In this document: positions 5,575-43,396 of the stretch, one piece after another
Position numbering within the stretch: position 1 is the stretch's first letter
Layout: the number at the start of each line of letters is the position of its first letter
Assembly (NCBI RefSeq): GCF_027942865.1
Contig: NC_134529.1
Span: 22,732,467 to 22,796,466 of the forward strand
Length of the DNA: 64,000 nucleotides
Reading direction: 5' to 3'
DNA from: Odontesthes bonariensis
Lineage: Eukaryota > Chordata > Actinopteri > Atheriniformes > Atherinopsidae
The notes under the pieces: generated by a model
What the model saw: the letters and a program-made list of their open reading frames with translations, nothing else
What the model was told of the DNA's origin: nothing
Database searches by the model: none
Program-made: the position numbers and the translations under genes

Positions 5575-6090
5575 TCCGCATAGACCTGTAATATTTATTG
5601 TGCCAACATAAAAAGATCAAAGCATGCATGTATACACACCAAATACAGAATTTCTTGCATTCCACACAACAGCCACTGAAATGAGTATATTCTGTTAAAC
5701 AAAAGATTTGATTCTTCAAAGAAACGTGTGGCAGCTTACCAAAACAGAGAATCTGTAACAACAGCGCTCCGAGCATAAAGACGCTGATAAACTCTGAATG
5801 TTTGGACAACTTTCACTGTACAGAGGTTTGTTTCCCCCTCCCCAAAAGAACAAACAAATTAAGAGATTAGGTCAAAGGTTAAGGATGACCTGATGAGTCA
5901 ACTCGAATCCAAGGCTGGCACTGAGCACACGGGGAACGAACACAACACAGCAAACTGATCTGAACCCGTTTGATTCAAAGTAAAGCAAATGTATTTTCTA
6001 AACTTCAATGTGAGGCGACACATAACGGAACCGAGGAGGCAGTTACTCCTCTGACTGCCGCTCAGCAGCAGGAACGTCAGCAGGAACGTC
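5575..6090 (-). other. tdrd6: tdrd6 3' UTR with poly(A) signal
   Basis: Downstream of the predicted tdrd6 stop (6091-6093, minus) the first clear AATAAA on the minus strand is at 5594-5599. A short run of tandem CAGGAACGT units spans the stop and the start of the UTR (6068-6100). The end would fall about 100 bp from the end of pla2g7. Confidence 0.5.
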
Positions 6091-6146
6091 AGCAGGAACG
6101 TCGGTGATGAGCAGAGAGAGATGTGTTACCTTCGACAGCTGGGCCT
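6091..6146 (-). CDS. tdrd6: tdrd6 terminal coding exon
   Basis: Acceptor CCTTTCAG and phase 1 entry give EAQLSKVTHLSAHHRRSC followed by TGA. No convincing further donor keeps the frame, although AAG|GTAACA at 6129 is possible. A poly(A) signal lies about 500 bp downstream. Confidence 0.5.
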
Positions 6147-9100
6147 CTGAAAGGAGGAGGAACAAAACTCGAGTTAATGGGACGCAGGCAGGTCATGTTA
6201 AAACCTGAAAAAAATGTTGAAAATTAGAATAAATTAGCTTCTCTCCTATTTTTTTTTTTAAATTCCATATTTAGAGTTCATGTTGGCCCCTTCAGAAGAC
6301 TTTTGTCCACAGCTACTTACCATTTAACTCAGGAGAGAAAGAAACATTCTGTATCCGCCTGTGTGTCACATTTTCACCGGGATCATTTACAAATGAAGTC
6401 AGTATGAAATACAGCCACCTCAAGGTATTAATGCGCCACAAAATGTTCAAGTTCTCAATCTTTGGTATAAATTATTGCACCATAGTCCACGTCGGAGCTC
6501 ATTTGTTAGGAAATTTCCTTCTGTTTTTTCCCCTCCCCTCGAGATTTGACACGAAGGTCAAACTTTTTAAATGAAATCTGATTTGCCTTGAAAACTCCTT
6601 TTCAGTGTGACAGGACATGAGAGCAGTGTTGCTTTTGGACCCTTTTTGAAGCTGTTAAATCACTTTCTCAGCCTAAAAGAAAACTATACAGACAATCCCC
6701 AACAACAGAGGCCCAAGCATGTATTACCGTGACCTCTTCCAACTCAAAGTTGTGTTTTAAGTTCATCTTTTTGTTTTTTTCTTCCCTTTCTCAGTGTGTG
6801 AGAACACAACTTACCAAAACTTTCCTCAGCAGAGGACGAGGTCTCCTCTGAGAAAACGCTGTCATTCAGATCCTGGAAAAATAAAAATAAAAAAATGATG
6901 CAAAATGCTTCAACACGTTCAGCTTTTTTCTTTTTTCTTTTTTTAACCTGTACAGTCCCTGTAAGCTTAATGAAGTCTGATTAAAAGATACAGTGTACTG
7001 TATCAGTCAAAAGTTTGGACATGTCTGCATATTCATTTGAAACGAGTAGGTCTTGTATATAAAATTGACTTTTATTATCCAAATGATCCGCCATCACTCT
7101 GGATGCTTAAACAAGTCTTAATGATGGCTGATGCTTATCTGACAGGCCCTGTGGTCAGTAAATACAGTTTAAGCACATTCTGAGCAGCAGATGGACATTA
7201 TATGATGTCAGTAAATCTACAGCCACGTAATACACTGACTGGCCCAAAAAGAAGACAAATCAATGAAGTTGCAGACGTGATGGTACTCTGTTTCAGAAGC
7301 ATCGAATCACTGAGCTGCATCACGCCAACAAAGCAACTAACAATACCGCAAAAAAAAAAAAATAAGATGGAGAAAACTCTCCTGTCATCAATAGAAGATC
7401 TTGGTAAAAAAATTTGTGCAACTACAGACGAAAAAGGGAATGTTGTGATATTATGTAATCTTGGGGAGATGGCGCCATGACAGACGAGTTAAAGCGAAAG
7501 GTGGTCCAACTAAACATTTCTAACTAAATGCATCCTGGGATCCTTTTAATTTTTACCTTTCCTTTGTTTTCCTCGCTCAGTTGTGGAGGAGGATTCACCT
7601 GCTGCTCACTGTCCTCAGACACCGTTTCAGCTTCTCTTCGGGAGTCTGATAGAATAAACGGGTATCAGCATCTGAGCTGCAGATAAGTCAGGACGCGGGT
7701 ATCGACTTCATTCCAAACGCTCACTGTCAAACATGTTTGTCTTTGGGAACTTTAACACCAGTGTGAACCTTTTATCTACGTCGTTGGCCTTTATTAAAAC
7801 AGTAAAGTTGCATTTCATTTAAGTGTCCGTGTCCACAGGCTGCAGCTGTTCTGTTGGAAGTGCTCGTTACCCGATTCTCATAATGCAAGAATCTGTTGCT
7901 CGCTTACCAAAAATAATAGCTGGTGTATCCGTCTCCTGTTCACCAATTTTGACATAGGTTATCTGTTAAATTCCACCCCTGTTGATTTGGTTTGATCTCG
8001 CTCAACAGTGAGATCAGCTGGGACGAAGAAGCTGAGAAGCCAAACTTCACGGGATTTGTGTGGATATAAATGCAGCCGGTACAAAACTAAAAATAACACG
8101 GCACGGCTTACAAATGTAGGTGTTTGAGTGCGATACCTCGGCAGAGGTCTGTCAAACAGATCTCTCCGACGAGACACGTCAAGTCTTCGCCCAGAGTCTT
8201 CTAACCGGCAAAAGAAAAAGAATTCAGTCAGAACGAATCATTTGCTGCATAATTTTCAACACGATTAGATCATTATTACCAGATTTGGGTCAGTTTGCGA
8301 CTCGGTATCTGCTGGTAAAGCTGCACAAGCTGCACAGAGACAAAACCAAAGAATGCAAACAAATCAAAGAGGAAAAGGCTCAAAATATGTTTGTTTTTTG
8401 GTTTGTTTTTTCAAAGTCTAGTTTGACGTGTGAAGAAATAAGATGACAAACCAGAAAGTTCATCCTGAGCCGATCTCTCGTCTTCAGTCATCGAGTTTCC
8501 CTGAAACAGACGTCAACACTTCAGCTTTCTCCATTTCACATCCGCTACATTACATGTCGAAGCAAAACAAACAAACAAAAACAAAAACAAAAAAACGCCA
8601 GTGATCGTGTTTGTACTCAAAAAGATTTCACGTGATTTTCTTACCTCGTGGGGGACAGAAATGTGAGGCACCTCATTCCGTTGGGCAACATCTCCCATCC
8701 CCCCTCTGCTCCCTGGAGGACGTTCTGCGAAGATAATGACACTCTGCATCTACTGTGCAGCTTCAGGGCATTTAATGTAAGGAAAAACTAGGCCTTTGGT
8801 TCTTTGGCTGGGGGCCTGGTAAGTAATCCAGTGTTTCCCGCAGCGCATTATAGTTAAGGCGGCCGCCTTAGCAAACGTTGCCTTGCCAACGTTCCCAAAA
8901 AAACCGAAGTAATAATGCTTTGCCAGGCTCTGACATTAAAAGACACCCGACGGAACGCTATCCGCGCAAAACCCCTGGTCCCGGCCGGCGACTCACCACC
9001 TTGACTAAGCAATTTCCTGCGGGAAACACTGTAATCTGTGGTCTGAATTATAAAAACACACTGCTGGTGAAAAAAATACTCACCAACTGAGTCATTCAGG

Positions 9101-12100
9101 ACCTGTAAAGGAAAAATTAATAAAACAAATACGTCATGTCACTAAATACAACAAAACTACTGGGAAAAAAAGTGTTAAATTGTCATTAAAGAAAAGTTTT
9201 TTTCATAACAACAGCAGTATTTTTATTGTTTTACCTCATTTGAGTCTTCAGCCTCACTTTGATCATCTCTGACCTCCGGACCAGCATCTCCCTGAGAAAT
9301 TAGATTAGATCAATTCACTTTTCATGTTGTGTTTATTGCTTATGAGCAGTCAGAGCGCGCCTTCACTTTGAAGAATCAGAAGGTTTCTTCACAGGCGAGC
9401 TAAACTAAAAGGTACCAAAAAGGTTTGGGCATGAGAAAAGCAACTTTTCTTGCGTCCCTGTCACAGTCTGCGTTCCAACACAGATGTTCTGCTGTCGTGG
9501 ACAAGCGAGTGGCTTTTAACTAGGCTCCCCTTTCAGAATTAAGGCTCTAGCATGATTGCCGCGTCTGCTAGCGTGAGCGGTGTTGATGACGTCACGTTTT
9601 TCGTGCCGGCTATATATAGTGGCGCAAGTCGATGCGCCAGTAGTTGCAATTTTCGAGGTGCCGCTGCTACGTGAAGATTACCGCTACTCTATAACCACGA
9701 AAGTCGAGAAGAAAACAATGAAGAGCAGGAGCACTGTCATCAATGACACTGCTGCAGTATCTGGAGAATTAACATATTTAATTCAGTTAAAAGAGGTGAA
9801 GGTCTGAAGCCCCTGGCATCACCACTTCGAGTCTCTGCCCTCTTCTTTGCCTTCACGTATCTGTCCCGTAGCTTCCTCCACACTCTCTTACAGAACTCTC
9901 CCTCTTTCCCCAAAGTTCTGACAATCTCTGTCCACCAGTTTTGGGAGTTTACGTGCTCCCTGTGCTGTTTCACTGCAGTTTCGTACAGGTGCTGTACAAA
10001 CGCACCTTCTGACTGAGCCTGGTCTCAAATTGGTCAATCCGGTCTGTTGTTCTCGGCGCAGCCAAGTTACAAAAATCGACTGGTGCACGACAACACGCTG
10101 CGCCGTCTTTTCAAGGCAAGCGCCAGGCCTGAAACGTCATTTTGACGTCACGGGTCGGCTGCCCCGTGAGCGACGCGTCAACTGTAAATCCGCCTTCAGT
10201 TTCTAAATCTCCAAACTGAGAGCACTTTAACTGCCGTCTACTGCAGGTAAGACACTGACTCACAACAACTGCACACAACCAGACTTTAAGAAAAAGAAAT
10301 GAGCCTTTAGGTCTTTACTTAGTTTAAATTTACTACAGATGTATATACTTGATGTGGAAACTCACCGTGATGCAAGCCGTCATTTCCTCTGCAGCCAGGC
10401 AAGCTGCTCGTGCGCTGGTCGTTTTTGCATCAACAACTGGCTCTTCTAAATCTAAAGTTCGAATGAATAAATGAACAAGTGCAACACCATTACTACTGAA
10501 CAGTGCAGTTTAAAGAGCACTAATGGTTCAGTGCTGTGCCCACTCCCACGCTGTGCGATACCTGTGCAGAAATCTGCTGAAAGGGCCTCTGCAACGTCGC
10601 CGCTCAGTTCTCCAACCTCATCACCCTGAACAGCAATAAAGACAACATTCACAACTCAAACACTGAATTATTTCAACTTATTTAGCAACTGGTATGCTAG
10701 AAATGTTCAGAAACTGCCATTTTTTATACCAAACAAAAATAGTTCCTGAAACAGGAAGATATTTAAGGTACAGAAACGTACTTCACATTTGTACGTTTCT
10801 AACCAACCAGGCAAGCTAGAGCTTACATCCATGTCTGCCGTCCAACGACACTGATGGGCTTTTGTTTGGTTATTGAAACAAAGGTGATAAAACAAAAGAG
10901 CAGCCATTGATTTTTGGAGCCAACAGCCACATTTTATAAACGAGTAAAGGGTAAGAATAACGGCAACAAAGTGTTTTCAGCGTTGTTCAAGTCATTTAAC
11001 TTCAACATCACAGTTGTGCTGTGCCAGTCAAATTTGGCCACTGAATTCAACTTGGGCTCAAATCGTCATAAAACAAAGTCAGTGAGGTAAAAGTAGCCAT
11101 TTACCTTTTCTGGAGAGAAAACCGAGGAGCTGTGCGGTTCACTTGTGGATGTGTCGGTGTCTGCAAGGAGGTCTGATGGAAAAAACGCACAATAAGCAAC
11201 AACTACCGGATCCTTTTAACTGTACTTCCAGACAGTTCTTTTAACATCGAGCATGTAAATATACACCAGAGCAAAATGATTGGGACACGTCTGTCAACAA
11301 ACCTAAATGTGTGCAGTGGTGAGCTGAGGCCGCTTCTTCCCTCGCTGAGTCACTCTGAAACAGATCATCCGTCACCATATTACGATCTATGTCTCAGCCA
11401 CGTTACTTACAGAAACTTCAACTAAACCCTAAACAGTCCAGCTGATAATCATCAGCCCCAAGAGAAGATTACTGGTTAACCTTCACAGGTTAAGTTTTGC
11501 ACTGTATCGGTGCACTACCTGCACGAGTGGGGGAGCGCGTGGCACCTCCTCCTGTGTGATGCCACCTCCAGCCTCACTTTCCTGCTTTCCTGTGGAGAAA
11601 ATCACTCGTACTTCAGAATTCAAAAGGCTCAAAATATGTTTGTTTTTTGGTTTGTTTTTTCAAAGTCTAGTTTGACGTGTGAAGAAATAAGATGACAAAC
11701 CAGAAAGTTCATCCAGAGCCGATCTCTCGTCTTCAGTCATCGAGTTTCCCTGAAACAGACGTCAAAACTTCAGTTTTCTCCATTTCACATCCGCTACATT
11801 ACATGTCGAGGCAAAACAAACAAAAACAAAAAAACGCCAGTAATCGTGTTTGTACTCAAAAAGATTTCAAGAGATTTTCATACCTCGTGGGGGACAGAAA
11901 TGTGAGGCACCTCATTCCGTTGGGCAACATCTCCCATCCCCCCTCTGCTCCCTGGAGGACGTTCTGCGAAGATAATGACACTCTGCATCTACTGTGCAGC
12001 TTCAGGGCATTTAATGTAAGGAAAAACTAGGCCTTTGGTTCTTTGGCTGGGGGCCTGGTAAGTAATCTGTGGTCTGAATTATAAAAACACACCACTGGTG

Positions 12101-15100
12101 AAAAAAATACTCACCAACTGAGTCATTCTGGACCTGTAAAGGAAAAATTAAATAAAACAAATACGTCATGTCACTAAATACAACAAAACTACTGGGGAAA
12201 AAAGTGTTAAATTGTCATTAAAGAAAAGTTTTCTTCATAACAACAGCAGTATTTTTATTTTTTTACCTCATTTGAGTCTTCAGCCTCACTTTGATCATCT
12301 CTGACCTCCGGACCAGCATGTTCCTGAGAAATTAGATTAGATCAATTCACTTTTCGTGTTGTGTTTATTGCTTATGAGCAGTCAGAGCGCGCCTTCACTT
12401 TGAAGAATCAGAAGGTTTCTTCACAGGCGAGCTAAACTAAAAGGTACCAAAAAAGTTTGGGCATGAGAAAAGCAACTTTTCTTGAAATGAGCCTTTAGGT
12501 CTTTACTTAGTTTAAATTTACTACAGATGTATATACTTGATGTGGAAACTCACCGTGATGCAAGCCGTCATTTCCTCTGCAGCCAGGCAAGCTGCTCGTG
12601 CGCTGGTCGTTTTTGCATCAACAACTGGCTCTTCTAAATCTAAAGTTCGAATGAATAAATGAACAAGTGCAACAGCATTGCTACTGAACAGTGCAGTTTA
12701 AAGAGCACTAATGGTTCAGTGCTGTGCCCACTCCCACGCTGTGCGATACCTGTGCAGAAATCTGCTGAAAGGGCCTCTGCAACGTCGCCGCTCAGTTCTC
12801 CAACCTCATCACCCTGAACAGCAATAAAGACAACATTCACAACTCAAACACTGAATTATTTCAACTTATTTAGCAACTGGTATGCTAGAAATGTTCAGAA
12901 ACTGCCATTTTTTATACCAAACAAAAAGAGTTCCTGAAACAGGAAGATATTTAAGGTACAGAAACGTACTTCACATTTGTACGTTTCTAACCAACCAGGC
13001 AAGCTAGAGCTTACATCCATGTCTGCCGTCCAACGACACTGATGGGCTTTTGTTTGGTTATTGAAACAAAGGTGATAAAACAAAAGAGCAGCCATTGATT
13101 TTTGGAGCCAACAGCCACGTTTTATACCCGAGTAAAGGGTAAGAATAACGGCAACAAAGTGTTTTCAGCGTTGTTCAAGTCATTTAACTTCAACATCACA
13201 GTTGTGCTGTGCCAGTCAAATTTGGCCACTGAATTCAACTTGGGCTCAAATCGTCATAAAACAAAGTCAGTGAGGTAAAAGTAGCCATTTACCTTTTCTG
13301 GAGAGAAAACCGAGGAGCTGTGCGGTTCACTTGTGGATGTGTCGGTGTCTGCAAGGAGGTCTGATGGAAAAAACGCACAATAAGCAACAACTACCGGATC
13401 CTTTTAACTGTACTTCCAGACAGTTCTTTTAACATCGAGCATGTAAATATACACCAGAGCAAAATGATTGGGACACGTCTGTCAACAAACCTAAATGTGT
13501 GCAGTGGTGAGCTGAGGCCGCTTCTTCCCTCGCTGAGTCACTCTGAAACAGATCATCCGTCACCATATTACGATCTATGTCTCAGCCACGTTACTTACAG
13601 AAACTTCAACTAAACCCTAAACAGTCCAGCTGATAATCATCAGCCCCAAGAGAAGATTATTGGTTAACCTTCACAGGTTAAGTTTTGCACTGTATCGGTG
13701 CACTACCTGCACGAGTGGGGGAGCGCGTGGCACCTCCTCCTGTGTGATGCCACCTCCAGCCTCACTTTCCTGCTTTCCTGTGGAGAAAATCAGTCGACTT
13801 TTCAGACACCCTCATCAAGTATGTCATTTTCTTCATTATGACTCAGTGGGGATTTTTGGGGGAGGTTTTCCAGAACTTTCCAGAATTGCTGTGGATTACG
13901 TCTAAAGGTGGTCTGATGCTGAGACGAGTATTCTTTTTCCTCGATGTGCAACATCATTTAACTACTTTTCGAACTGATGGGGACTAAGCGATGTAGCTGC
14001 GGAATAAACCAGATCACACAACCTAAATTTCATTCTATGTTGGCATTTTAACACCTTGAAAAGTTCCTGCTCACAGTGTACAGATGATTGTTACGGAACT
14101 ACTTTTATCCTGAAAAACTCTGGAGATTTGCAGAACTTCTGTTATGTGATGCACATCAGTAATAATAATAATAATAATATCCAATGTGTAAGTATCTGCT
14201 CAGCTTTGACTGAAATATAACAGCATGGAGGTTGTACAGCAGCTTGCAGCAATCAGGCATGAATTTTTTTTGGTTAGGAACATCAACTGCCTCCATGACC
14301 TCTGCGTCACAGCTAATGCTGCCGCTCCAACTGTGGACTGTGTCGGGATGCGATCCGAGATGCAATATGTAAAAACTACTGCACACTGACATACGTGTGT
14401 GTTCCTTTAGTTTCTCCCCATCTAAAACAAAACCTCTAATTATAAAGCAGCAGGGAAAAAAGTAGGAAGCGCTCACCACATAACTGCTGTGCTGGATGCA
14501 CACGGGAGGGCGGCACCGACTGAGCCTGATGAAAGAGCAAACACAAAATTAAACCAAATGTGCTACACAGGGATTAAAGCAAAAAAAAGTCCTCTGACTG
14601 AAATTTTTAGCGATTAAACATCAGATTGTTCCCCCCCTTGTACCCCTTCGGAAACCAATGTAGCCATACCTCTGCCCTCAGAACGTACATTGGTTCTATG
14701 CAAGCAATGGAGGGGTAATGCAGATACTTGATCAGATGCCTCAGCAGACTGTATGATTCTATAACATGTGAAAGTGTGGCCTTTATGCTGTCCTAGCCCA
14801 ATTTTACACATACCTTCCTAAGACCTAATGCAAGTGTTCAGTTTTGTTTCCAAGGGATAAAAAAAAGTTTTAGTCAATAGCCGCTTTCGGACAGACCGTT
14901 CTAAGAACGCAGTTATCAGAACTGTCCTACTCGAATTTCGTTCTGATAACTATCCTTCCCCAGCGGAACTGTTTCAGTCTGCATTCGCACATGAGTCGGG
15001 ACCTGATAGGGACTGATGCGCCGCGCGCAGCCGTCTGCGTCAGTGACGTGTTAGCCGTTAGCCGTTTAGCGCCACATTCAACAACAAAACAAAACCCGTA

Positions 15101-18100
15101 AAAGTAAGAGAGAAGAAAAAACACCACAAAGAAGCTAATATGGAGAGCGGGGAGGCCACCGTGTTCATGGTCTGCATGATGGTGATATTAATCATGGACG
15201 ATCACATCAGGCGTCTAATATCGAGGCTGGAAGAGCTCACAGAGAGTCAGGAGACGATACTTTTTCATTTCATGAAGGAAGAAAGGAGAGCAGAGAGCTG
15301 CAGACAAATGAGACCAGTGTAAGTTTAACTTATTAAACACCCGCCGGTTCTGTCTGTGTCTTATGAGGAAACATTTCAGCCGTGATAGCATGACAAGGGG
15401 CGTAGCTACCGACCACCACACACCTCCGTCAGAAGCGTTCTATAGAACTATGAAAAGACCCGACCTCGGAGAAGGAGCTAAATAGTTATAGGAAAGGGAG
15501 ATAGCCCCGAGTTCCTGTATGTCCGAACACGGGAGAAAACGGCCCCGCGGATTAAAAGGTTATTAGAACTGCCAAAGGTTCCTACAGTCTGAAAGCGGCT
15601 TATGCATTCTTGTGGCAGCACATTAGATAGCTATTCTGGCTATTTAATGGCATTCCACAGAGTGTTAGCTTTGTGAAAAGGCTAAGTAGGTTAGTTTATG
15701 ATGAACTGTAACTCCTGTAGTTGGCGCAGTGCAAAAATGCTACAATTCTATAGAATAGAATTCTACTGCATACCAAGTGGTTTTTAATTGAGCTGTGTTT
15801 ATGGAGGCCTACACTGTCATAGGTGCCCTTCTTTTTGTCTATCACCTACAAATGACAAAAAAAACAAACGAATTAAGTGCAGAGATTTATTGCTTTTGGG
15901 CTTGTTTTCAGGACGGCAGTCGCTTATTTCTCGTCCAAGATCTGGCAACAGTGCCCACCTGTCCAAGTCCAGGCTCCGCTGGAACACAAACATTCTATGA
16001 CTTTAGCTCTAACTCGCTGAGCTACTAGTTCTAGCCTAAAATCGAGGTGTGTGAATGTAGCTACAGGCAATCGTTTGGGTGAGCTCTTCAATTGAAATAA
16101 AATGCAATGGTCTTCCTGTTCAAGTAACGTCAACATTTCATTAAGACATTAGCGCATGTTTCCCCAAAACATTGCGTGAACCTGTTGTCGCATTCGCATT
16201 CCTTAATCAAATGCACTGCAGAACGACATAGCCTAAGGACCATTTCACGCTGTAGCATACCCTGTGTGGTAGGCTATATTATCAACCAACCTATTGTTGG
16301 CATGCGACGTCACTTCCTTGATCTGGGAGCTTCAAAGTAAGATGAGGGTTGATCTACTACTGTAGACAACAAAGTACATGCTATATTCTACATTAATTTT
16401 TATGTTGTAGAGTTGTGAATTTATTTTCTCAATGGAGAAATTGAGCAGCCTTGCTTTGTTGTCTACAGTAGTAGATCAACCCTCATCTTACATTGAAGCA
16501 CCCAGATCAAGGAAGTGACGTCGACGCAGCTTTAGCTGCAGAGAAGCTATCAGGCTTGTGTTGATAATAATAAACTCCTGGACTATGTACAAACTTCCAA
16601 ATGCATCGTTTTGTGAGTACAGACCATATTTGTACTACTGTAGAAGTTTGGTGTCATGGCATGTGATTTTAGTGTGGTAATTTTGGAGATACTGCCAGGG
16701 TCCATTAGCGCTTGTACTAAGCTATTCGGGATAACTCAGTAACTCAGCTGATGTTCAGCCAAGATCGGAAAAACTTCGGGTGGGCTACTTGGTTGGATGT
16801 CACGGTTCAAATGACCCTAGGGTGAATCTACTCCGAACTATCACTTTCACAGACTTGACAAACGCCGTGCGGTAACCAAGGTTTTTAAATCAATGCATTT
16901 GAGGAAAAAAAAAAAAAAAAATCGACAGGGCCAGATAATATGTCCACTTTTCTTTTAAAGACATTCGCAGAGGAATTGACTCCGGCATGGCACCCGCTGT
17001 TCCAACTCTCTATTGATAAACACACTGTACCTGAGATCTGGAAGAAGTCCATTATAATTCCAGTTCCAAAAAAGGCATGTCCTCGGGAGGAAAACGATTA
17101 CAGGCCTGTTGCATTAACTTCTAATGTCTTCAAGGCCCTCGAACGACTCATGTTAAATGCACTTCGTTCAGAGGTGGAGCCAGTGTTAGATAAATACCAG
17201 TTTGCATATACAAAGAAACGTAGTACAAGTGATGCCATATCGACTATAATGCACCTTATACTGAAACACCTTGAAACCCCGGGTGCATATGCCAGACTGC
17301 TCCTTATTGATTTTAGTTCTGCTTTTAATACAATCCAGCCACATATTCTTTTAAGGAAATTAGCTCTTCTGAATGTAAACCCATTCTTAATCAGGTGGTA
17401 TCACTCTTTCCTCACCAAGAGGGCACAGCAGGTCAAGTTTAACTCCTCCCTATCAAGCACAGAAATATGTAGTACTGGGGCCCCTCAGGGTTGTGTCAGT
17501 TCACCATTTTTGTTTATTCTGTATACAAATGACTGTGTTAGTTCCGAGCCTAATCAATATGTTGTGAAGTTTTCGGATGATACGGCTGTTCTTAGTCTGC
17601 TCACTAAGAACTTCGATTCATCCATCCACAAAGAGGCTGTAGACAGGTTTGTGGACTGGTGCGACAACCATAAACTACACATGTAAGACTGTAGAAATGC
17701 TCTTTGATCCCAGGTCAACTGGTGACCGTGGCCCTTTGACCATACACGGTAATAACATTAATCAGCTAACAGCATTCACATTGACAGCGACCTGAGCTGG
17801 CAGACACAGGTAGCCACTGTATGCTCTAGAATTCATCAGCGCCTCCACTTCTAACGCAGACTGCGGTTGTTTGGTGTCAGCAAAAACATAATGTTAATTT
17901 TCTACAGGGCAGCAATAGAGTCCATCTTACGGTACGGTATCACCAGTTGGTTCGGAAATCTAACTGTCAAATGTAAATCACAGATTCTCAGCTTGGTCAG
18001 AGTAGCGGGCAAGATTATGGGTCACTCCCCCCTTAACCTTCAGGAACTGTTCAATGAGGCTGTCATCACTCAGGCAAAAAACACTCTAAATGACAGTTCA

Positions 18101-21100
18101 CATGTGTTGTACAATAAATGCTCACAAATGCCCTCAGGGAGAAGATGTAGGGTCTCCTTATGCAAACACAACCGGTTCAAACATTCCTTTGTCCCAGTGT
18201 CAGTCAAGCTCATTAATGAGCAAATGTAGGGAGGTTTTGCAAGCACCAGAACGAGCAATTTATTGTGAATTGCACTCTATTGTAGCACTAGCATTTTATT
18301 GTGAATTGCACTTTAAATGTACATTAGAACCATAATTTATCCAAATCTGTACCAGCATTTTTAAAATATATGTACTAGCATTTTAACATGCACTGCACTT
18401 TAGGTGCATTAGCGTGTACTTTCAAGGCATACCTCTTGCACTTTGGTCCTTACCTGGCTGTCGGTTAATGTACCCTCCTGTTTGGATGGTTATACTGTTT
18501 TTACATAATGTTGTCTTGTATGTTCTGTCTGTCTATGCAGCAGTACCCTGTCTCTGAACCAAATTTCTCCCAAGGGAGACGAATAAACGTGCTTGACTTG
18601 ACTTGACTTGGCCTTTTCTAATGGGGGTTTCCAATATGTAAAGGCCTCAGGTACTGGTCCAGCATTCCTTCTATATTCCTGTAACGAAATACTATTTTAA
18701 GGCGTGTATTTGTAAATTAGGACTAATAATTATTGTAAGTCATTTTTCCATGCAGTTGTAGCCCCAGCCCCGCCCCCGCCTTTGACAACTCGTGGTCCTT
18801 TTTTTTTTTGCAGCACCTTACTTATCAGGGGAGGTCGCGGCTCAAACATAAAGGAATTAAAACAAATACTGCTGTTAATTTAATCTGTTACATCACATCA
18901 GTATTATAATAAAATCCATACACCAAACACCCGTCACAACCCACCCTCCCCTTTCTCGATCAGGACGATCTCCCAGTTGAGTTCAGCTGACGGAAATCCG
19001 TCACAGCTACGGAGAACTTTAATCCATGGCTACATGAAAAAGAAAATTGAACTTTTTCCCCACAGAAACTAGATGGAATGGAGTCCATGTCAGACTTAGG
19101 ATTCAAACAGAGTGTAAAGAGCGATAGAACTGGTCTTCTGTCTTTTTCCACAGACAATACATAAATATGATGTTACATAACCCGTTTCTTCTGTCAACCA
19201 GTGCCAGTGTTTATCTCTCTATAATCGCTCTTGGTCTGGGCCGTCAAACAAACACTGAGCTGCCACTTCTCCCTAGAGTTGTCAATTTAGTGACTTTTGT
19301 CGCTAGATTTCCACAGTAAAGCATCGAGTGATCATTTGGGAAACTTGTGGACAAACCTATAATCTCTCGCCGCTGTGCTCAGCCAGGGGCTGCAGCATAT
19401 TCAGAAATGAAAACATTAGATATATATACACCGACAGGTCTGACCTCTGCGGTGGCTAATCCAAGTGTAAAAGTGAGGTTTTGTGCTCCCTGAACCACTT
19501 CCACCAGTGAATTCTGGGAGTCATCTTGGAAAATGAAAAAGGTTTTACATTTCTTTCCGGTACCTGTTTGGCAAACTCCAAATTTGTATGTGTCGTCTCT
19601 TGAAGATCAGCTTTTCGGGGAACCTTAAGAAAAGGATGACCGTCAAAGTCTGTCTACACATATTTATCTTTCAATATATTATGGTCAAATTTTAATCTTG
19701 ATTTACCATTTTTACTGCAGTCCTAGAGGTACCCGGTGAAACGGCAGTTTCACTGTCATCTTTGACCATTGCTGGATCTTGGGGGGGAAAAAAAATGGTT
19801 TAATGTAATTATGAGAGAAATCATTCATATAAAGGGTATTTTTCCTGAGTCGTAACATTTTCATGGTAATTGTAGCAGCGTCATGCTGTGTGCTAAAGAA
19901 AAGTGGACAAAAGGAGAAATGGATGTGTTGCTTACCACAAGAATGCTCGACGTCCGGGCCATGGGCAGTTGGATGCATCTCTTCCTTATCGGCAGTTTCA
20001 TTCTCCAGTTCATCCATTGGTTCTGCAATGTCCTCCTCCAGTGGAGAATCTAAGTAATCTGTTCCAAGAGTATCCTCCTCAGTGTCTTTGACAGTGTCCA
20101 CAGTCACATCTTTGTCATCTTTGTTATCAAGTAGAAGAAACATGGTTTCACCTATGCCACTGTCGCATGGCAGATTATCTTTGGGAGACGTTAGTCTGGC
20201 GGAGATTACGTTCAGCCCCTCAAAGGAAATGGGTTCCTGCTTTGGAGACGCCATGGGAACAGAATCTTGGGAGCACTCAGAGTTCTTTGGACTACTAGCT
20301 AATTTTGAGTACCCGTCTCCTGTGTGAGGGTCAGCCATCTCCTCATCACTGTGGTCGCTCTGAGAGTGAATGCAGGCAGCAGTGCTACAGCTTATATCCA
20401 CATCTTGGATGTCGGGATACTCCGGTTGATCCTCCAGTACTGCAACAACTGAGTCAAGCTGAAGTGGTGTTTCAAATGAGTTTGTCAGCCCACCTCTGTC
20501 AGGCACGCCCTCCGTCCTGAAACATTTCCACCAGGTTTTCATTGCTTCGTTTATCACCTGGCCTTCACACTCCATCTGCACACAATATCTTATTTTCCCC
20601 TCCGCTGTTGTTGCTCTTGTGACAGTCAGCTGTAACAACTTGTCTGCTGTGAGCGTGGACAGCTCATCTGCGGCAGAGCTGTCCCAAGAACCACAGGAAG
20701 TATCAAAGCCTTCAAGCTCGCACATAAATGCCTGTGGTGGAACGTCCATGAGGGGTAGAGGCACTTCTCTCACATTTGAAATGTTTACTGGAGACTTGTT
20801 TCCGTAGTCCACAAAGAGAACAGACAGCTCGTCTCCATCTTTGTCAAGGACTTCTGCACGATACCAAAGCTGATCATCATCAAAGAGAGCAATGCACAGG
20901 CTCCCAGGGAAGAAAACATCTGGGTCAATATGTCTGGCACCTGTTTTATCCCCAACTTCTGCGACACTGAAAGTTATCTGATCAAGTTCCTCAGAGTTAG
21001 CGGACTGACACCAGAAGGTCTGAGCATCATTTATGGCCGTGATGTAGACCTCTAACTGCTGCCCTACTAAAGATTCTTGGTGGTGGTCATGTAGGAAACA

Positions 21101-24100
21101 AGTGTTCAGTTGCGACTTCTCCGAGTTTTCTACCTCTTGGCTGATGCCAGAGATCCTGGCCGGCTCCCCCTTCGCTTCCTTCTCTGCGACGGTTTCAGGA
21201 CATTCAGCGGGTACTTTACACACAACATCCACGCCGCCGTCTTCAAGTCTGACCTCCCACACAGATCCCACCTGTCGGATGAACTGGCATTTGAGCACCT
21301 TTTCCCCATCGCAGCCGACGTCTTCCTTGAAAGCAGACACCACCTCTGGATCGAGGGCTCTCTCTTCTCCAAGTACAGCAGCATCGCTCAGCGTACAGTG
21401 GGTGCTGTAAACGGGCAACTGCAAGAGGGGCTTCTGGAGTCGGACAATTTTGGAAATCTGTGTCACTGCTGCATTTCCAAAATCAACAAACTCAATGAGA
21501 GCCATTCCATTGTCATGGATTTCCTTCACGACTGCTCGGTACCACGAAGAATCGTCAGCAAATTCTGCTTGAATGAGGTCCCCTGGATGTACATCTTCAA
21601 CAGCATTAACTTTTGGGGTAAATTCTGGATCATTGAGCTTTTCAACAAGGGATATTATTTCACTCTCTTCGTTTACACATTGCACATAGAAACTCAATGG
21701 GCTGTCGCAGTGTGAGACATAAACTTCGGCTGTCATAGCAGGTGCGATGTGTTTAGACGGCAGGTCTGAGAGTTTCGGGAGTTTTTCAGCATCGCTTTCC
21801 TCCTGGGACACTGTACCAGCTGATTTGGACTCGAGCTGCCTGGTGTCAGGGGGAAGATTCTCTTTTCTTGCTTTCACCGGAGAACCAACAGACTCCGAAC
21901 TGTTATTTGGCATCGTTCCACGTGACTGCCTTTGATGTGGAGGTTTGTACAGCTCTAGAATAGCAGGCCTGATCTTCTGGCCATTTTCAGAAAGATGGTG
22001 TGCTGGCTTCTGTGCAGACTGCTGACTCACATCAGTAGATTTCCCCTCAAGCCTCAAATGGCGTGGAGGTTTCTGAGCAGAGAAATTACTCTTCTTCAAA
22101 GCTTGTTTATGGTTTTCGGTGTCTGCGAGTGGTTTCAGAAAAGACTTTGGTGTCTTTTGTGCATGATGCTCAAATGTTTTCCAGCCCTGATGGACAACCT
22201 GCTCTTCCGTTTTCATCTCAATCTGGAACATTTCCTTGATCTTTGCATTGATCTGAGTGTTTCCATGATACAGCTCTACCAGCAATTTCCCATCTGGTTC
22301 TCTGGCCACTATCAGTGCTCTGAATTTGCATTCTGTCGCTGTTGTCTCAAACCAGCTGTTCACCTCCCCGGGAACATTGGCGGGAACATCAGAGAGACCA
22401 CACATCACTGCTTGCACAGGCACAGACATGATATCATTTGCCTCTTTGGGAACTGGGAGCAAGTCAGATTTGTCCACCTCAATAGTGTCACCATAATCCA
22501 CAAAGTGAACCAGAATTGATGGCCTTGTGGTCTTGATCTGTGCCCTGTACCACTCCCCATCAGTGTATCTTGCGAAGCACAAAGTTCCAAAGACTGATGG
22601 GACCTTTATCTTCTTGAGCTGATGGCACAGATTAATCACTTTCCTCTTGAGATCTTTTATCACATCAATGTTCTTGTCGAGATGGCAATAGAACTGACTG
22701 ACATTGTTTACACATGCGACTGTGACTTGTTCCTCTGTCCCGGTTTTGAGATTGTGCGTTGAGTAGTAGTATGTGTCCAGACGGAAAGCTGGGCTAGTGG
22801 CTTTCTTGGGAGGCACACTTGTGACAAGATTGGTCATACTGGTGCAGATGCTCTCAAAGGGAGTCTCAAGATCCACAATGTTGTAAACAATCATCTGCTC
22901 ACTGTACATGATGGCATAAATGGTGCACTTCAAAATGATGAAGTTGGATGCGGCAGTTTCCACAAAGTTTTGGAACTTTGCCTTTGCTTCTTCGTTCCAC
23001 TCATTCACAGCAGAAGTGGGGTCAGCAGGATTTAAGAGACTGCATCGAAAAGCTTGGCCGTTCAGAGTGAGGAATTCTGGGCAGATTCTCCTCAGGTCAC
23101 AGATGGAGATGGTCACCGTCTGCCCATAGTCAACAAACAATATGTCCACGTGGGGGGTTTCATGTCTGTGAACCACAAGGCCTCTGTACCACATTCCATT
23201 ATCAGGGTGTCGAGCGACGCAAGCCATTTCAACATTAGGCTGAAACTCGCTGCCTGCATAATGAGCCTGTATGTCATGCATGAGCAACTTCAAGTGCTCT
23301 GCATTTTGTACCAGCTGGCACCAGAAGTCATTTGGGCTTTCGATGTAGGACACATTGATATCAAGGACACTTCCGATTGGAAACATATGCTCCTTAAAGG
23401 TGGGAACTTTTCTTTCTTTGCTGGTATTGCCAACCGTGCTTGGGGGTTGGAAAGAGGTTCCACTGTTCCTACAAACATCAAGGAGTCTTGCATCAGAGCG
23501 CTGTGTTGGACACATAATGGCAGATTGCAAGGCACTTTTGCTTTTGGGCTGTCTCTGCATCTCAGCCCTTTCAGCAAGGCCGGAACTACACATCAACGCA
23601 CTGACATCGTGTTCACCCTGTGCTTTGGGATCTCTAAGCTGGACAACATAGCTGTTATTGTACTTTGCTTTCACATGGACTTCCAGTACTTTATCTGTGA
23701 CTGCTTGGATGAAAAAATCAGAGGAACTTTGACTCCATGTCTCATCCTTCGGTCCGACACCAGCCAGAGTGCATTTCAGTGCCAGTTGTGGCAGCTTTTT
23801 GAACTCAGGAGGGAGGACCCTTATGTTACTCTTGTCAATCACTTCTGTGTTTCCATAGTCAACAAAGAACACTTCGACTTGAGTGTCACTGATTTTGGTC
23901 ACGGTTGCTCTGTAGAAGTCCCCATCTTCTGACTTGGCAGCACAGTAGAGCCCAATAGTTGGGTTTTTCACAACATTTTTAGTCGCCGAATCCTGGTAAA
24001 GGCGGTACATACTGTCCAACAGTTCAGCCAACTCCTTTCTGTAGTTCTCGGTTTGGATCCAAAACTCTGATGGGTTGGATATATAGTGAACAACTGCCAA

Positions 24101-25516
24101 GTGTGAAGAGTTTAGACAGAGATCTTCAGCAGGCAACATCTCTGTGATTGGCTTCCTTTCTTTTGTTACCATCTTTCCTTCTTGTTGGGATGGATACTGG
24201 CAGCTGTATGCAGCGTTTGGGATGGCATAATCCCCGAGTGCTTTCTCACACTCGAGCAAACCGCTATCCTTGGAACCAAATAAGTTGTTCATGTTGGTGT
24301 TGTCGTCACCATAGAGTGTGATGTAGTAAACTCCCTCAGTGATGCTTTGATACTCAAATTTGGCGATCATTCTCTTGTAGAGCAGGAGAGACCTGAGGAA
24401 GTCAATCTGGCTTGTTGTCCATCCCACTCCTTTGTCAATGATTCCATGGAGGGAGCAGATATAAGTGACAACTGGCATTCTGAAGAACTCTGCAGCCAGT
24501 GGTCTTATATTCTCCACTTGAACAAACTGTTTTGTTCCATAGTCAACATTCAGCACTTCCGCAACTTTATTGGTTGGGAATACCTGTTGAAGAACAGAGC
24601 GGTACCACCTGCCATCACTTCCTCTTGCTGCACATGGAAAGCCAATCATTTCACGGCTTATAGTGCAACTGGACATTCTGCCGTCACAGCTCTGTGTAAT
24701 TCGCTCAGAGAGTTTCTTCAGTTCTTGTGAGAAGACCTTCAACTGACAAAAAATTCTCTGCGGATTTGTCACTTCTGTTACAATGACTGTCTCCACAGTT
24801 CCTCCTGGCAGTTCTGGGTACAGAAACAGCTCATGCTTCTGCAGTCCTTCTCCTGTTCCCTTAGATAGCTGCTGAATCTCTACGGATGCTTCAGCTTCAC
24901 TGTGGGGGTTTAGTGACATGAGAACAAATTCCAGAAATCTCATTGGAGACAGCTTCTTTGCAAATCCCATCTCATACATTTGTTTGGATATGCAAGGGAT
25001 GTGCAGGAGAAATGTTCTCTGTGGTACCAGTACATCTTGCACTTGTGCAGTCACAGACTTCCCAGTAAGAGATTTCAGGTATTCAAGAGCCACTGTTGAC
25101 CATCTGTTCTCAGGTGAGAGTGGTAAAACATTGGCCAACACACAAAACTCTACTTCAGGAGGCAGTTGGAAATGCTCCTTCTTACCCCATGCTAGCTTGC
25201 TTGTTGTGGTACTGTGTGTCATCCCTTTGTCAATGAGAAAAACACTGTATTTCGAGCCATTTCTTGAGACTATGCGGGATCTGTACCAAGTTCCATCAAA
25301 CTGAACTAAGCATTGGTCACCAGGATTTCCTTCCAAGTCTTTAAATACAATTCCAGGACACTGAATGTCCTTAGCTAGGTTGTCGTAATCTGCTATCCGC
25401 TTCTGGCTAAATTTTCCCCAGAACTCTACTAAGACACATAGGGGATGCAAGTGGACCTTGGTTATAAGAGTTACTACATCTGATCCTGGGGTGGGAAGTC
25501 CTGGGATTGAAGACAT
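6091..25516 (-). CDS. tdrd6: Tudor domain-containing protein 6, whole gene model
   Basis: Germ-granule (nuage/chromatoid body) scaffold. Tudor domains of this family bind symmetrically dimethylated arginines on Piwi proteins, and zebrafish Tdrd6a organises Bucky ball germ plasm. Transcript order on the minus strand: exon 1 19936-25516; exon 2 19707-19777; 14477-14525; copy B exons 13707-13777, 13491-13542, 13293-13360, 13015-13038, 12750-12813, 12554-12633, 12267-12323, 12115-12133, 11884-11963, 11701-11749; then the same ten in copy A (11519-11589 down to 8452-8500); then 8280-8329, 8137-8200 (or an alternative), 7557-7645, 6815-6872 and 6091-6146 with a TGA. Every junction in this chain keeps phase (mostly 0 to 1, 1 to 0). 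Exon 1 is certain. The tail exons are inferred from splice signals plus phase and have low-complexity acidic/Ser-rich peptides with no known domain. Other exons may exist in 14526-19706. Confidence 0.75.
6815..6872 (-). CDS. tdrd6: tdrd6 penultimate exon (58 bp)
   Basis: Acceptor TTTTCCAG and donor GTAAGT flank DLNDSVFSEETSSSAEESF in phase 0, with exit in phase 1. The Ser/Glu-rich composition matches the other tail exons. Confidence 0.6.
6985..7556. other. tdrd6 intron with a probable DNA-transposon remnant
   Basis: Around 7005-7020 the sequence GTCAAAAGTTTGGACATG resembles an end motif I associate with short Tc1/mariner-derived repeats in fish. A 92-codon open frame on the plus strand (7202-7480) resembles nothing I know. 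Confidence 0.3.
7557..8329 (-). CDS. tdrd6: tdrd6 tail exons between the duplication and the 3' end
   Basis: Candidate exons on the minus strand: 8280-8329 (ACAALPADTESQTDPNL, phase 1 to 0), 8137-8200 (KTLGEDLTCLVGEICLTD..., 0 to 1, donor GTATCG; or extended to a stronger GTAAGC donor near 8111 and then read 1 to 0), 7908-7935 (ETDTPAIIF, 28 bp, 0 to 1, strong GTAAGC donor), and 7557-7645 (DSRREAETVSEDSEQQ..., 1 to 0). Three different combinations keep the frame, so the true path, or alternative splicing, cannot be settled from sequence. Confidence 0.5.
8829..9031. mobile_element. 203-bp MITE with 15-bp terminal inverted repeats
   Basis: The ends are CAGTGTTTCCCGCAG and its exact reverse complement, flanked by TAATC on both sides (8824-8828, 9032-9036). 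Copy B of the duplication has a single TAATC at the same position (12064-12068) and no element, so this is a clean insertion with its empty site. The TIR looks hAT-like, but the 5-bp duplication is shorter than the usual 8 bp, so the superfamily is left open. Confidence 0.85.
9453..10296 (-). mobile_element. 844-bp segment present only in copy A, with an MADF/Myb-like gene fragment
   Basis: Absent from copy B, where the flanks join directly at 12484/12485. On the minus strand about 9800-10000 encodes NWWTEIVRTLGKE and EFCKRVWRKLRDRYVKAKKR, the W-W-CkxxWxxLRDxY pattern of an MADF (SANT-like) DNA-binding domain of the kind carried as a second gene by PIF/Harbinger transposons. The core is bounded by weakly inverted ends (AAGGC near 9541 and GCCTT near 10196) containing GACGTCAC and GCGTC motifs. 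About 90-100 bp on each side is also copy-A specific, so copy B may have lost it by deletion. Confidence 0.55.
11622..13792 (-). repeat. tdrd6: Tandem duplication copy B: ten tdrd6 tail exons
   Basis: Nearly identical by eye to 8373-11604, apart from two segments missing here. Exons in transcript order with peptides: 13707-13777 (KQESEAGGGITQEEV...), 13491-13542 (SDSAREEAASAHHCTHL), 13293-13360 (DLLADTDTSTSEPHSS...), 13015-13038 (CRWTADMD, weak acceptor), 12750-12813 (GDEVGELSGDVAEAL...), 12554-12633 (EEPVVDAKTTSARAA...), 12267-12323 (EHAGPEVRDDQSEAEDSNE), 12115-12133 (VQNDSV, 19 bp), 11884-11963 (ERPPGSRGGMGDVAQ...), 11701-11749 (GNSMTEDERSALDELS). The exons sum to 564 bp. Entry and exit are both phase 1, so the block duplicates without breaking the frame. 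Confidence 0.85.
14477..14525 (-). CDS. tdrd6: Candidate tdrd6 exon 3 (49 bp)
   Basis: Acceptor GCTCTTTCATCAG and donor GTGAGC on the minus strand. Phase 0 entry and phase 1 exit fit exon 2 and the next exon at 13777. The peptide in that frame is AQSVPPSRVHPAQQLC. All three frames are open, so the frame rests on phase consistency only. Confidence 0.5.
14879..15600 (+). mobile_element. 722-bp TIR transposon, possibly Harbinger-like
   Basis: The ends AGCCGCTTTC and GAAAGCGGCT are inverted, with similarity extending inward (GGACAG...GTTCT against AGACTGTAGGAAC). It contains a 60-codon first exon starting at 15140 (MESGEATVFMVCMMVILIM...) that runs into a GTAAGT donor. A related, longer copy lies at 27072-29096. 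No clean target duplication is visible. Confidence 0.6.
16304..16524. mobile_element. Foldback element with arms of about 70 bp
   Basis: The left arm begins GACGTCACTTCCTTGATC and continues through GATGAGGGTTGATCTACTAC to about 16373. The right arm (about 16451-16524) is its near-perfect reverse complement. The loop is AT-rich. It contains no coding sequence. Confidence 0.8.
16922..18610 (+). mobile_element. 5'-truncated LINE, reverse transcriptase broken by a frameshift
   Basis: An open frame at 16940-17686 carries RT blocks RPVALTSNVFKALERL, LIDFSSAFNTIQP (catalytic Asp), GAPQGCVSSPFLF and KFSDDTAVL (YADD-type box as FSDD). The frame stops after HKLHM, where an LNV-KTKE block is expected. 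The thumb/C-terminal part continues at 17867-18229 (IFYRAAIESILRYGITSW...). The 3' UTR ends in AATAAA and four TTGAC units at 18593-18610. The endonuclease is absent. It belongs to the CR1/L2/Rex1-like Jockey group by motif; the exact clade is not assigned. It lies in the tdrd6 intron, antisense to the gene. Confidence 0.88.
18611..19706. other. tdrd6 intron, no feature recognised
   Basis: No exon with good splice signals on the minus strand and no clear TE ends were found. It includes a TATATATACA run near 19422. Confidence 0.35.
19707..19777 (-). CDS. tdrd6: tdrd6 exon 2 (71 bp)
   Basis: Minus-strand acceptor TTTTTTCCCCCCCAAG precedes ATCCAGCAATGG, and a donor GTAAAT follows. Phase 1 from exon 1 (G|AT) gives DPAMVKDDSETAVSPGTS, a Ser/Thr/Asp-rich peptide matching the acidic end of exon 1. 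The exit is phase 0. A second possible donor lies 12 bases earlier, also phase 0. Confidence 0.7.
19936..25516 (-). CDS. tdrd6: tdrd6 exon 1: seven Tudor domains in one 5.6-kb exon
   Basis: The ATG at 25514-25516 opens MSSIPGLPTPGSD, and 1860 codons follow to a donor G|GTAAG after HSC. Seven Tudor cores are visible by their WYR and VDYG-type motifs, starting at roughly residues 66 (WYRSRIV, but FLIDKG replaces VDYG, so degenerate), 292 (GRWYRSVL, NVDYG), 522 (DFYRATV, FVDYGN), 763 (MWYRGLV, FVDYG), 975 (EWYRAQI, FVDYGD), 1310 (SWYRAVV, FVDFGN) and 1538 (LWYRAEV, FVDYGN). A charged linker at about 1100-1250 (KPPRHL, KPAHHL repeats) and an acidic Asp/Glu-rich C-terminal part (about 1700-1860) contain no Tudor. 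Reading on past the donor gives 74 further codons that look non-coding, so I end the exon at the donor. A single giant coding exon is usual for TDRD6. Confidence 0.95.
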
Positions 25517-26602: not shown

Positions 26603-27468
26603 TCAAATACCTAATTAAAATGAAGGTCACTTAATGGTGTTACTTGATCAGATTTAGGCTACTAAATGGTCATCAACAACAACAAAACTCTATCATTTTA
26701 AAGGGGACATATTACAGAGAGGAAAAAAAAGAAGAAAAAAACCCCACTAACTTGGCCTAACACCAGCCTCAGAGATTATAAGAGCCCAGTGGATAAACTT
26801 TATATTTCAGGGGTAATGTCCAAGAGTTAGCAAAAGACTGCGTGTGTACGGAACCACTTTTTGAAAGTACTGTTTTACTAACTGGGTACAGTTCAACTGA
26901 ACTTCAGACAAGAGAAACATAAGTATTAGAGAAATAATTCATCGAGTTTTTTTTTTTTTGTTGTTGTGGTTTTTTGCCTTTAACCACAAACTAATACTAA
27001 CGACGACGTTTCTTGACTGCAATGCAAAGTTACCTCTGCCCAGTCCTCTAGTCATTCTAGATTGTTACAGTAGCCGCATTCGGACAGAGCAGTTCTAAGA
27101 ACAGTCCTCCTCGAATTCCGTTCTGAGAACTGTCCTTCCCCAGGGGAACGGCTTCATTTTGCATTTATTTTGCATGAGTCGAGACTGATGCGGCGCAACC
27201 AGTCTGCGACAATGCCGTGTTACTTTAGCGCCACATTCAACAACAAAACAAAACACCACAAAGAAGCTAATATGGCGAGCTTGGAGGTCACCGTGTTCAT
27301 GGTCTGCATGATGGTAATATTAATCATGGACGATCACATCGGGCGTCTAACATCGAGGCCGGAAGAACACACAGAGAGGGTCAGGATCGAGCGCAGGCGA
27401 TACTTCTTTGTTTCATGAAGGAAGGAGAGCAGAGCGCCGCAGACAAAGGAGACGACGTGTAAGTTTAA

Positions 27469-28893
27469 CCCTCTAACCGCCAAAGTCGCAGAATTGCGAC
27501 ATTACGTCAGCATAAACAAAACAGTCTGTAGATAAAATAAACGGGCTTTAACCCTCTAACCGCCAAAGTCGCAGAATTGCGACATTACGTCAGCATAAAC
27601 AAAACAGTCTGTAGATAAAATAAACGGGCTTTAAGGTGTTCAGTCCTCCTACCACTAGTTGGCAAACATGTTACCCTTTCAAACAAGACCAAGCTCACGT
27701 CATTTTGTAGTTCAGTGTTTTTATAAGGCAGTGCAAAAAAGCCGCGCTAGCTCAGACACGGAAGCAGTTATTCAGAGCTTTTCTGTAGAGACGTGCGAGT
27801 CGAATTTTTATTGTCAGCTAACTATTAGTGAGTTTTTAACACCATGGCTTGTAAGAAGTTGAACCGTGCGGAAGTATTGAGCATGCTATTTGCCGATTCC
27901 GACTCCGAAGGAGAGTTTTTACCTCGTGAGGAGGAGGATTGGACGAGCACTCATGCTTCCCACGGTGAAACTTCCGAAGGCAATGGTGCCGGCATGCGAA
28001 GCGAGGCTGTTCTCCAAGCACACACACACACACTCCAACTCATTCGGTGCCGTTATCCAACCTCAATGGAGTGGGTGGTAGTGGGGAACGCGGTCGCAGT
28101 GTCCGTAGAGGTGTTGGTCGAGGAATCAGGGGTGGGAGAAGTGGGTCTGGTATCTTTAGCATGCGCTCTCTCCATCCAGCCCCCGGTGCCGCGGCGCGCC
28201 TATCCGCCAGCGCAATGATCCTGACATTTTACCACTTGTTTTATTATTGTATTCCTCATTCCTGATCATTATGAATAAGGTTGAACAGGTTAAAAAAAAA
28301 AAAAAAAAAAAATCAATACAATGTCTTCCACTTCTTGCATGTGTTTTCCTACCCTATGGTAGCCTAATGATGACAGTATTTTACCACTTTCTCCTGTTTT
28401 ATTGTTGGTTTCCTCCTTATGAATGATGGTAAAAGACAGAAAAATGAAAATAAGTTCAAACATCAAGTCAATATCCACCATTTCCTGAAAAAATATAGGC
28501 AACTTTTCGCATGTGTTTTCCTACTATATGGTAATGATGATATAGTAATATTTTACTACATTATTCTGTTTTATTGTTGCTTTCCTGTTCCCTGATCATT
28601 ATAGATGATGATAAATAGACAAAAAGAAAAAAAAGTTTTAAAAAAACAAGTTCATAATCACTCAATTCCAATATTTCCTGAACATAATGAGATTCAAAAT
28701 GGCTGCCACCTGATGACGTCATAATATGCAAATTAGATCAATAATTTCATACCCCACATAAACTATGGATCATGGGCAACATTTTTCTAATGTACAGTAG
28801 GCATCTATCTTTAACCCCCTTTCAGCCACCAGCTTTTGAAATATTAATGTCAAAATCCAGTATTTTCAAAAAACAATCTTGGCGCCTAAAGGG
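27469..28893 (+). mobile_element. piggyBac-type element, 1425 bp, nested
   Basis: The ends CCCTCTAACCGCCAAAG and (reverse) CCCTTTAGGCGCCAAGA are inverted and sit inside TTAA (27465-27468 and 28894-28897), the piggyBac target. The first 83 bp are tandemly repeated (27469-27551, 27552-27634). A frame from 27844 encodes MACKKLNRAEVLSMLF then DSDSEGEFLP, like the acidic N-terminus of PGBD4-type transposases. The catalytic DDD domain is absent. The sister element at 14879-15600 has the intact single TTAA (GTAAGTTTAACTTATTAAAC). Confidence 0.85.
27844..28218 (+). pseudogene. piggyBac transposase N-terminal remnant
   Basis: A 124-codon frame starts MACKKLNRAEVLSML and contains the Asp/Ser/Glu-rich stretch DSDSEGEFLPREEEDW typical of the N-terminus of piggyBac transposases. 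The second half (an AC-repeat coding HTHT, then Val/Gly-rich sequence) does not continue the family, so the gene is truncated and non-functional. Confidence 0.6.
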
Positions 28894-29096
28894 TTAACTT
28901 ATTAAACACGCGCCGCTTGTGTCAGTGTCGTATGAGTAAATATTTCAGCCGTGACAACATGACAAGGGGCGTAGCTACCAACCACCAAACACCTACGTCA
29001 GATGTGTTCCTATAGAACCCAGAAAAGACCCAGCCTTGGAGAAGGAGCTAAAATGGTTATAGGAACTGAGGGCGATGGTCCCGAGTTCCTGTATGT

Positions 29097-41046: not shown

Positions 41047-43396
<2,350 letters not shown>

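Follow-up and report, generated by a model that had tools for sequence, protein, structure and literature searches.

Does a Tudor-domain gene of the fish Odontesthes bonariensis carry a part of its 3' end twice, and would both copies be read into one protein? The question arises in a window of 64,000 nucleotides, which is the whole stretch of DNA analysed here (positions 22,732,467-22,796,466 of contig NC_134529.1, in an assembly of 945 Mb and 187 contigs). In this window a minus-strand germline gene, probably tdrd6, is modelled as ending in a tail of many small exons, and a block of these exons is present as two adjacent copies. The interpretation favoured here, held with reasonable though far from complete confidence, is that the block is a real duplication within the gene, made recently by one event, neutral to the reading frame and read twice in series. 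The copies and the sequence between them lie as follows.

8373..11604, minus strand: copy A, the downstream copy in the gene (self-alignment)
11605..11621, no strand: junction filler of 17 base pairs (bp) between copies A and B
11622..13792, minus strand: copy B, the upstream copy (self-alignment)

Self-alignment of the window confirms the arrangement proposed in a first-pass annotation of this DNA: the copies are head to tail, in one orientation, 17 bp apart, and can be read as carrying the same exons. Self-BLAST returned pieces of 1,318, 456 and 423 bp with E = 0.0, and the similarity is therefore not due to chance. The aligned part, 2,170 bases, contains 25 substitutions (1.15%; 13 transitions and 12 transversions), together with one 10-bp and one 1-bp insertion or deletion. 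The copies had been called near-identical, which is true of the aligned bases but overlooks two large differences, 208 bp that are extra in copy A and 844 bp that are absent from copy B. No third copy of the unit was found when the whole 945-Mb assembly was searched with copy B. Scoring of 7 of 7 candidates gave ten matches. One is copy B and three are parts of copy A; the other six are short (56-63 bits) and all map to the same region of about 130 bp in the query, which looks like a dispersed repeat. If real, the duplication is recent, and as a type of mutation it is ordinary and of a kind already known.

Two copies so alike could also be produced by an assembler that set the two haplotypes of a single-copy region in series, in which case the 17 bp would represent gap filling or noise from read ends. 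False gains of exons inside genes are an assembly error described in PMC9516828, and the differences between the copies, 1.15% with two structural variants, resemble those between haplotypes, a point that tells against a real duplication. The filler is also similar to the right flank, at a borderline level that was equalled by 174 of 5,000 shuffles and by 101 of 5,000 random 20-mers from the window. On the other side, neither the join between the copies nor any other part of the window contains an N, the assembly is very contiguous (the 187 pieces being contigs or scaffolds), and a misjoin would have had to invent sequence between the copies. The window also includes an assembled dinucleotide array, AT-rich and 304 bp long, which suggests that long reads underlie the assembly. 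A false duplication is rated unlikely but not negligible.

If the duplication is real, the next question is whether the block encodes protein. Gene models were scored by splice sites (with approximate weights), by codon use trained on the large exon of the same gene, and by phase continuity. For copy B the highest-scoring chain consists of nine exons, entered in phase 1 and left in phase 1, and this was the top result among nine phase combinations under all three penalties. The nine-exon model was at first partly read by eye; a later chain search gave the same nine, with an exon 8 of 68 bp. The exons of each copy measure 71, 52, 68, 64, 86, 57, 19, 80 and 49 bp in the model, giving 546 bp or 182 codons; the chain search favours the 68-bp form of exon 8, with a total of 534 bp, by 0.6 score units, and a single low-penalty chain reads copy B as ten exons with 540 bp in all. 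All three totals are divisible by three. Phase 1 at entry and exit had been anticipated by the first-pass annotation and holds in the nine-exon model, while its count of ten exons, 564 bp and 188 codons was not reproduced. The exons of copy B are these.

13707..13777, minus strand: copy B exon 1, 71 bp, phase 1 to 0
13491..13542, minus strand: copy B exon 2, 52 bp, phase 0 to 1; the weakest exon (acceptor 3.9, donor 3.0, coding -3.1)
13293..13360, minus strand: copy B exon 3, 68 bp, phase 1 to 0
12750..12813, minus strand: copy B exon 4, 64 bp, phase 0 to 1
12554..12639, minus strand: copy B exon 5, 86 bp, phase 1 to 0
12267..12323, minus strand: copy B exon 6, 57 bp, phase 0 to 0; holds two of the four residues that differ from copy A
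12115..12133, minus strand: copy B exon 7, 19 bp, phase 0 to 1; holds one of the four
11884..11963, minus strand: copy B exon 8, 80 bp (68 bp if the acceptor is at 11951), phase 1 to 0
11701..11749, minus strand: copy B exon 9, 49 bp, phase 0 to 1; holds one of the four

The copy B exon chain is far beyond chance. Its score of 104.1 was not approached in any of 200 Markov-resampled sequences (mean 19.1, maximum 44.7). Control chains scored 27.8 on the opposite strand, 37.1 in the LINE-bearing intron of the same gene, and 18.1, 22.9 and 28.0 in three other stretches.

The same exon set is readable in copy A, as had been claimed, with nine of nine acceptor and donor pairs retained in each copy.

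11519..11589, minus strand: copy A exon 1, 71 bp; acceptor retained; just 15 bp upstream belong to its own intron and the remainder to the junction
11303..11354, minus strand: copy A exon 2, same splice sites as copy B
11105..11172, minus strand: copy A exon 3, same splice sites as copy B
10562..10625, minus strand: copy A exon 4, same splice sites as copy B
10366..10451, minus strand: copy A exon 5, same splice sites as copy B
9235..9291, minus strand: copy A exon 6, same splice sites as copy B
9084..9102, minus strand: copy A exon 7, same splice sites as copy B
8645..8724, minus strand: copy A exon 8, same splice sites as copy B
8452..8500, minus strand: copy A exon 9, same splice sites as copy B

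The block is bounded by introns of the same phase and the frame is retained, in copy B by the chain search and in copy A by the same boundaries. In the model, the splice predicted earlier from 11701, at the end of the last copy B exon, to 11589, at the start of the first copy A exon, is in frame. The remainder of the gene is modelled as follows.

19936..25516, minus strand: large first coding exon, 5,581 bp, with seven Tudor stretches (PF00567, gene model)
14477..14525, minus strand: exon immediately upstream of the block, exits in phase 1
8280..8329, minus strand: exon immediately downstream of the block, entered in phase 1
6043..6146, minus strand: terminal coding exon with the stop codon (gene model)

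The full model with both copies is open from ATG to stop, with 2,428 amino acids and one terminal stop; without copy A it has 182 residues fewer and is likewise open. The addition made by the block, about 180 residues used in series, is a prediction of this model. The tail after the Tudor exon, about 386 residues long with one block, is predicted to reach about 568 with both. Aligned with each other, the 182-residue repeats show four differences (E115G, H116D, Q135L and L178Q, from B to A). By a charge-hydropathy rule the repeats and the remaining tail count as disordered and acidic, and the Tudor part does not. Differences between the copies number 4 in 546 exonic bases and 21 in 1,624 intronic bases (Fisher p = 0.36), a comparison that is uninformative on selection. 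In the terminal coding exon, three 12-bp tandem repeats at 6066-6102 give a VPAD-type repeat near the C-terminus.

Real copies need not be used together: one block might be skipped, used as an alternative, or lie in a poorly spliced tail. Because the block is frame-neutral, omission of either copy in splicing would not shift the frame. Little of the natural intron upstream of exon 1 remains in copy A, where the acceptor score is 8.3 as against 10.0 in copy B, and the transposon sequence in copy A brings competing splice sites. Nevertheless, all nine site pairs are retained in each copy, the model has no internal stop or frameshift, and the word TCTGAA, which could be a branch point, stands upstream of the exon 1 acceptor in both. 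Separate use of the copies is rated improbable, and translation of both blocks in series is retained as the preferred reading.

Several features of the gene model weigh against this reading. Exon 2 is weak in both copies, and the splice-site weights are approximate. Left unconstrained, the best chain in copy A exits in phase 2, and copy A chains use 10 to 12 exons; the nine-exon model of copy A therefore depends on that of copy B. All four exonic differences alter the protein, so there is no sign of selection preserving it. Near 19.5 kb the small exons are uncertain because one implied intron is just 50 bp long; an alternative exon pair there (45 + 80 bp) also arrives in phase 0 by its length, and therefore leaves the phase at the block unchanged. 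Finally, the name tdrd6 is presumptive, the database matches being generic Tudor ones, and the gene could be another multi-Tudor gene such as TDRD15. The large exon holds seven Tudor stretches (Pfam PF00567, E = 5.6e-154), and the 32 matches among solved structures are mostly Tudor-domain proteins (Drosophila Tudor, TDRD1, Tudor and KH protein, SND1 and TDRD3), a few carrying clone names only. The gene is presumed to be tdrd6 from an apparent likeness to the TDRD6 N-terminus and from the single large exon, since a long exon that encodes seven Tudor domains is taken to be the hallmark of tdrd6.

How surprising is it that the frame survived? The single-copy model has 18 introns, all of phase 0 or 1 and none of phase 2, mostly alternating between the two. 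As a result 73 of 153 intron pairs are of equal phase, and of the nine possible nine-exon blocks seven are neutral, so that the frame neutrality of the duplication is not remarkable. A recent, frame-neutral doubling of the tail, as first put forward, fits the evidence, but its neutrality to the frame is not particularly unusual. The acidic tail (exons and introns within 6043-19936) may itself have a longer history of this kind. Among the peptides of its 18 exons (153 pairs), the best pair score was reached in 117 of 400 full shuffles and no single pair is significant. However, 14 pairs had p <= 0.025 against 3.08 expected, which none of 400 shuffles matched, and the summed similarity score was reached in 3 of 400. 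This excess is weak overall, and may not mean common descent because shuffling destroys local acidic runs; earlier rounds of exon duplication in the tail are possible. A bolder proposal is that the tail is a freely expandable acidic spacer, grown repeatedly by exon duplication because its intron phases let many blocks double in frame, and that its segregating length alleles tune germ-granule assembly within the species. This is highly speculative and is given little credence.

The differences between the copies bear on their order of events and, again, on whether they could be alleles.

8829..9031, no strand: 203-bp terminal-inverted-repeat element, copy A only; flanked by the 5-bp target duplication TAATC, the corresponding site in copy B being empty
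9453..10296, no strand: 844-bp segment, copy A only; ends without target duplication
9539..10198, minus strand: old high-copy DNA transposon with a MADF-like open reading frame (ORF), lying within the 844-bp segment and differing by 5.9% from a consensus built from 19 relatives

The 208-bp surplus of copy A consists of the 203-bp element, which has 15-bp inverted ends, and its 5-bp target duplication. Among the relatives of this element fetched from the genome, 2 of 11 have both ends, and both of these show a 5-bp target duplication. As copy B has the empty site and copy A the target duplication, the element was inserted after the copies had separated. The transposon in the 844-bp segment carries an ORF of MADF type (PF10545, E = 5.9e-10). 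Of 2,199 first-look candidates for this transposon 40 were scored, namely copy A's own and 39 others at 88-91% identity. The transposon in copy A differs from the consensus of 19 relatives at 39 of 659 bases, the relatives themselves differing by 3.1-5.9%; this distance far exceeds the divergence of A and B, and the transposon therefore most likely predates the duplication. Most likely, judging from the sequence, the 844 bp were deleted from copy B after the duplication. Within the same transposon, the best copy A chain exiting in phase 1 at the middle penalty adds a 135-bp in-frame pseudo-exon at 9884-10018; this may represent an exonisation in a single copy.

Substitutions are spread unevenly along the copies. 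One side carries 18 in 862 bases (2.1%) and the remaining side 7 in 1,308 (0.5%), a contrast (Fisher p = 0.0015) that points to gene conversion or to a mosaic origin. A local divergence of 2.1% is high for alleles and speaks against two haplotypes placed in series.

What kind of event would join the copies of a real duplication in this way? One candidate is unequal crossing-over between flanking repeats; PMC3484663 proposes unequal crossover for the amplified exons of teleost piccolo b. At the present breakpoints no sizeable homology was found: a comparison of 301 bp on the left side of the unit with 701 bp spanning its right end gave a longest common word of 10 bp, in opposite orientation. 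With no longer word shared by these flanks, and with filler at the join, unequal crossing-over appears very improbable here, and end-joining or template switching is the likelier route. For the filler itself, short words recur within the window, none longer than 10 bp.

A single germline event is envisaged, which would have set a second copy of 2 to 3 kb from the 3' region of the gene head to tail with the first, each breakpoint falling in one of two introns of equal phase. The join would probably have been formed by end-joining or by template switching during replication, leaving the 17-bp filler; copy A took along just 15 bp of the intron upstream of exon 1. Later changes would be the insertion of the short transposon into copy A and, most likely, the deletion of 844 intronic bp from copy B, while gene conversion possibly kept one part of the copies alike and so produced the uneven substitutions. 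Splice sites and frame would have survived in both copies, and the transcript would read nine exons twice. The acidic disordered tail would thereby be lengthened, and an effect, if there is one, would be quantitative, as a longer linker or as extra weak contacts in germ granules.

The duplication shares features with several known systems. As in vertebrate intragenic tandem duplication of one or more exons, the copies are adjacent, symmetric in phase, bounded by introns and within one gene; unlike the usual case, nine exons are copied at once, very recently, with no sign of mutually exclusive use. In teleost piccolo b, single zinc-finger exons have been amplified 8 to 16 times, as PMC3484663 reports. 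There, as here, in-frame exon copies lengthen one fish protein, whereas the present case has one block in two copies, a disordered tail and flanks in which no homology was found. The false exon gains of PMC9516828 likewise involve adjacent near-identical exons in one gene with differences like those of heterozygosity; in contrast, the join here has no N and the assembly is very contiguous. The same paper ties false duplications to divergent heterozygous regions, notes that incorrect gap filling gives gaps in depth, and recognises false duplications, as opposed to true ones, from haploid read depth, gaps and discordant read pairs. Zebrafish Tdrd6a is reported to tune the aggregation of the germ-plasm organiser Buc, according to a review (PMC9624338). 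The present gene resembles tdrd6 and zebrafish Tdrd6a in its large exon with seven Tudor stretches, and apparently in its N-terminus, and differs in its doubled tail. Among the literature matches listed, no title concerned exon duplication in tdrd6. No tdrd6 relative was found among microbial contigs, where two pattern matches arose and none was confirmed, or among viral contigs; both collections are uninformative on fish.

Other features of the window include reverse-transcriptase ORFs (PF00078, LINE-like) at 16889-17683 and 59380-61368, the former within an intron of the tdrd6-like gene and in opposite orientation. Stretches of 40-134 bp at 15065-15482 and 27224-29052 recur 12 to 13.6 kb apart, are 86-91% alike and apparently form one repeat family, and an 83-bp unit is present in two perfect tandem copies at 27464-27629. 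On the minus strand at 43148-43597 lies an EF-hand ORF whose best matches are hippocalcin-like and neurocalcin chains. Rfam gave no match within the window at gathering thresholds.

Were the doubling an assembly error, it would be a good example of how a functional duplication can be mimicked. If it is confirmed by reads, it would be a young multi-exon duplication caught before decay, and would offer a natural variant of tail length with which to ask whether the disordered tail of this protein matters.

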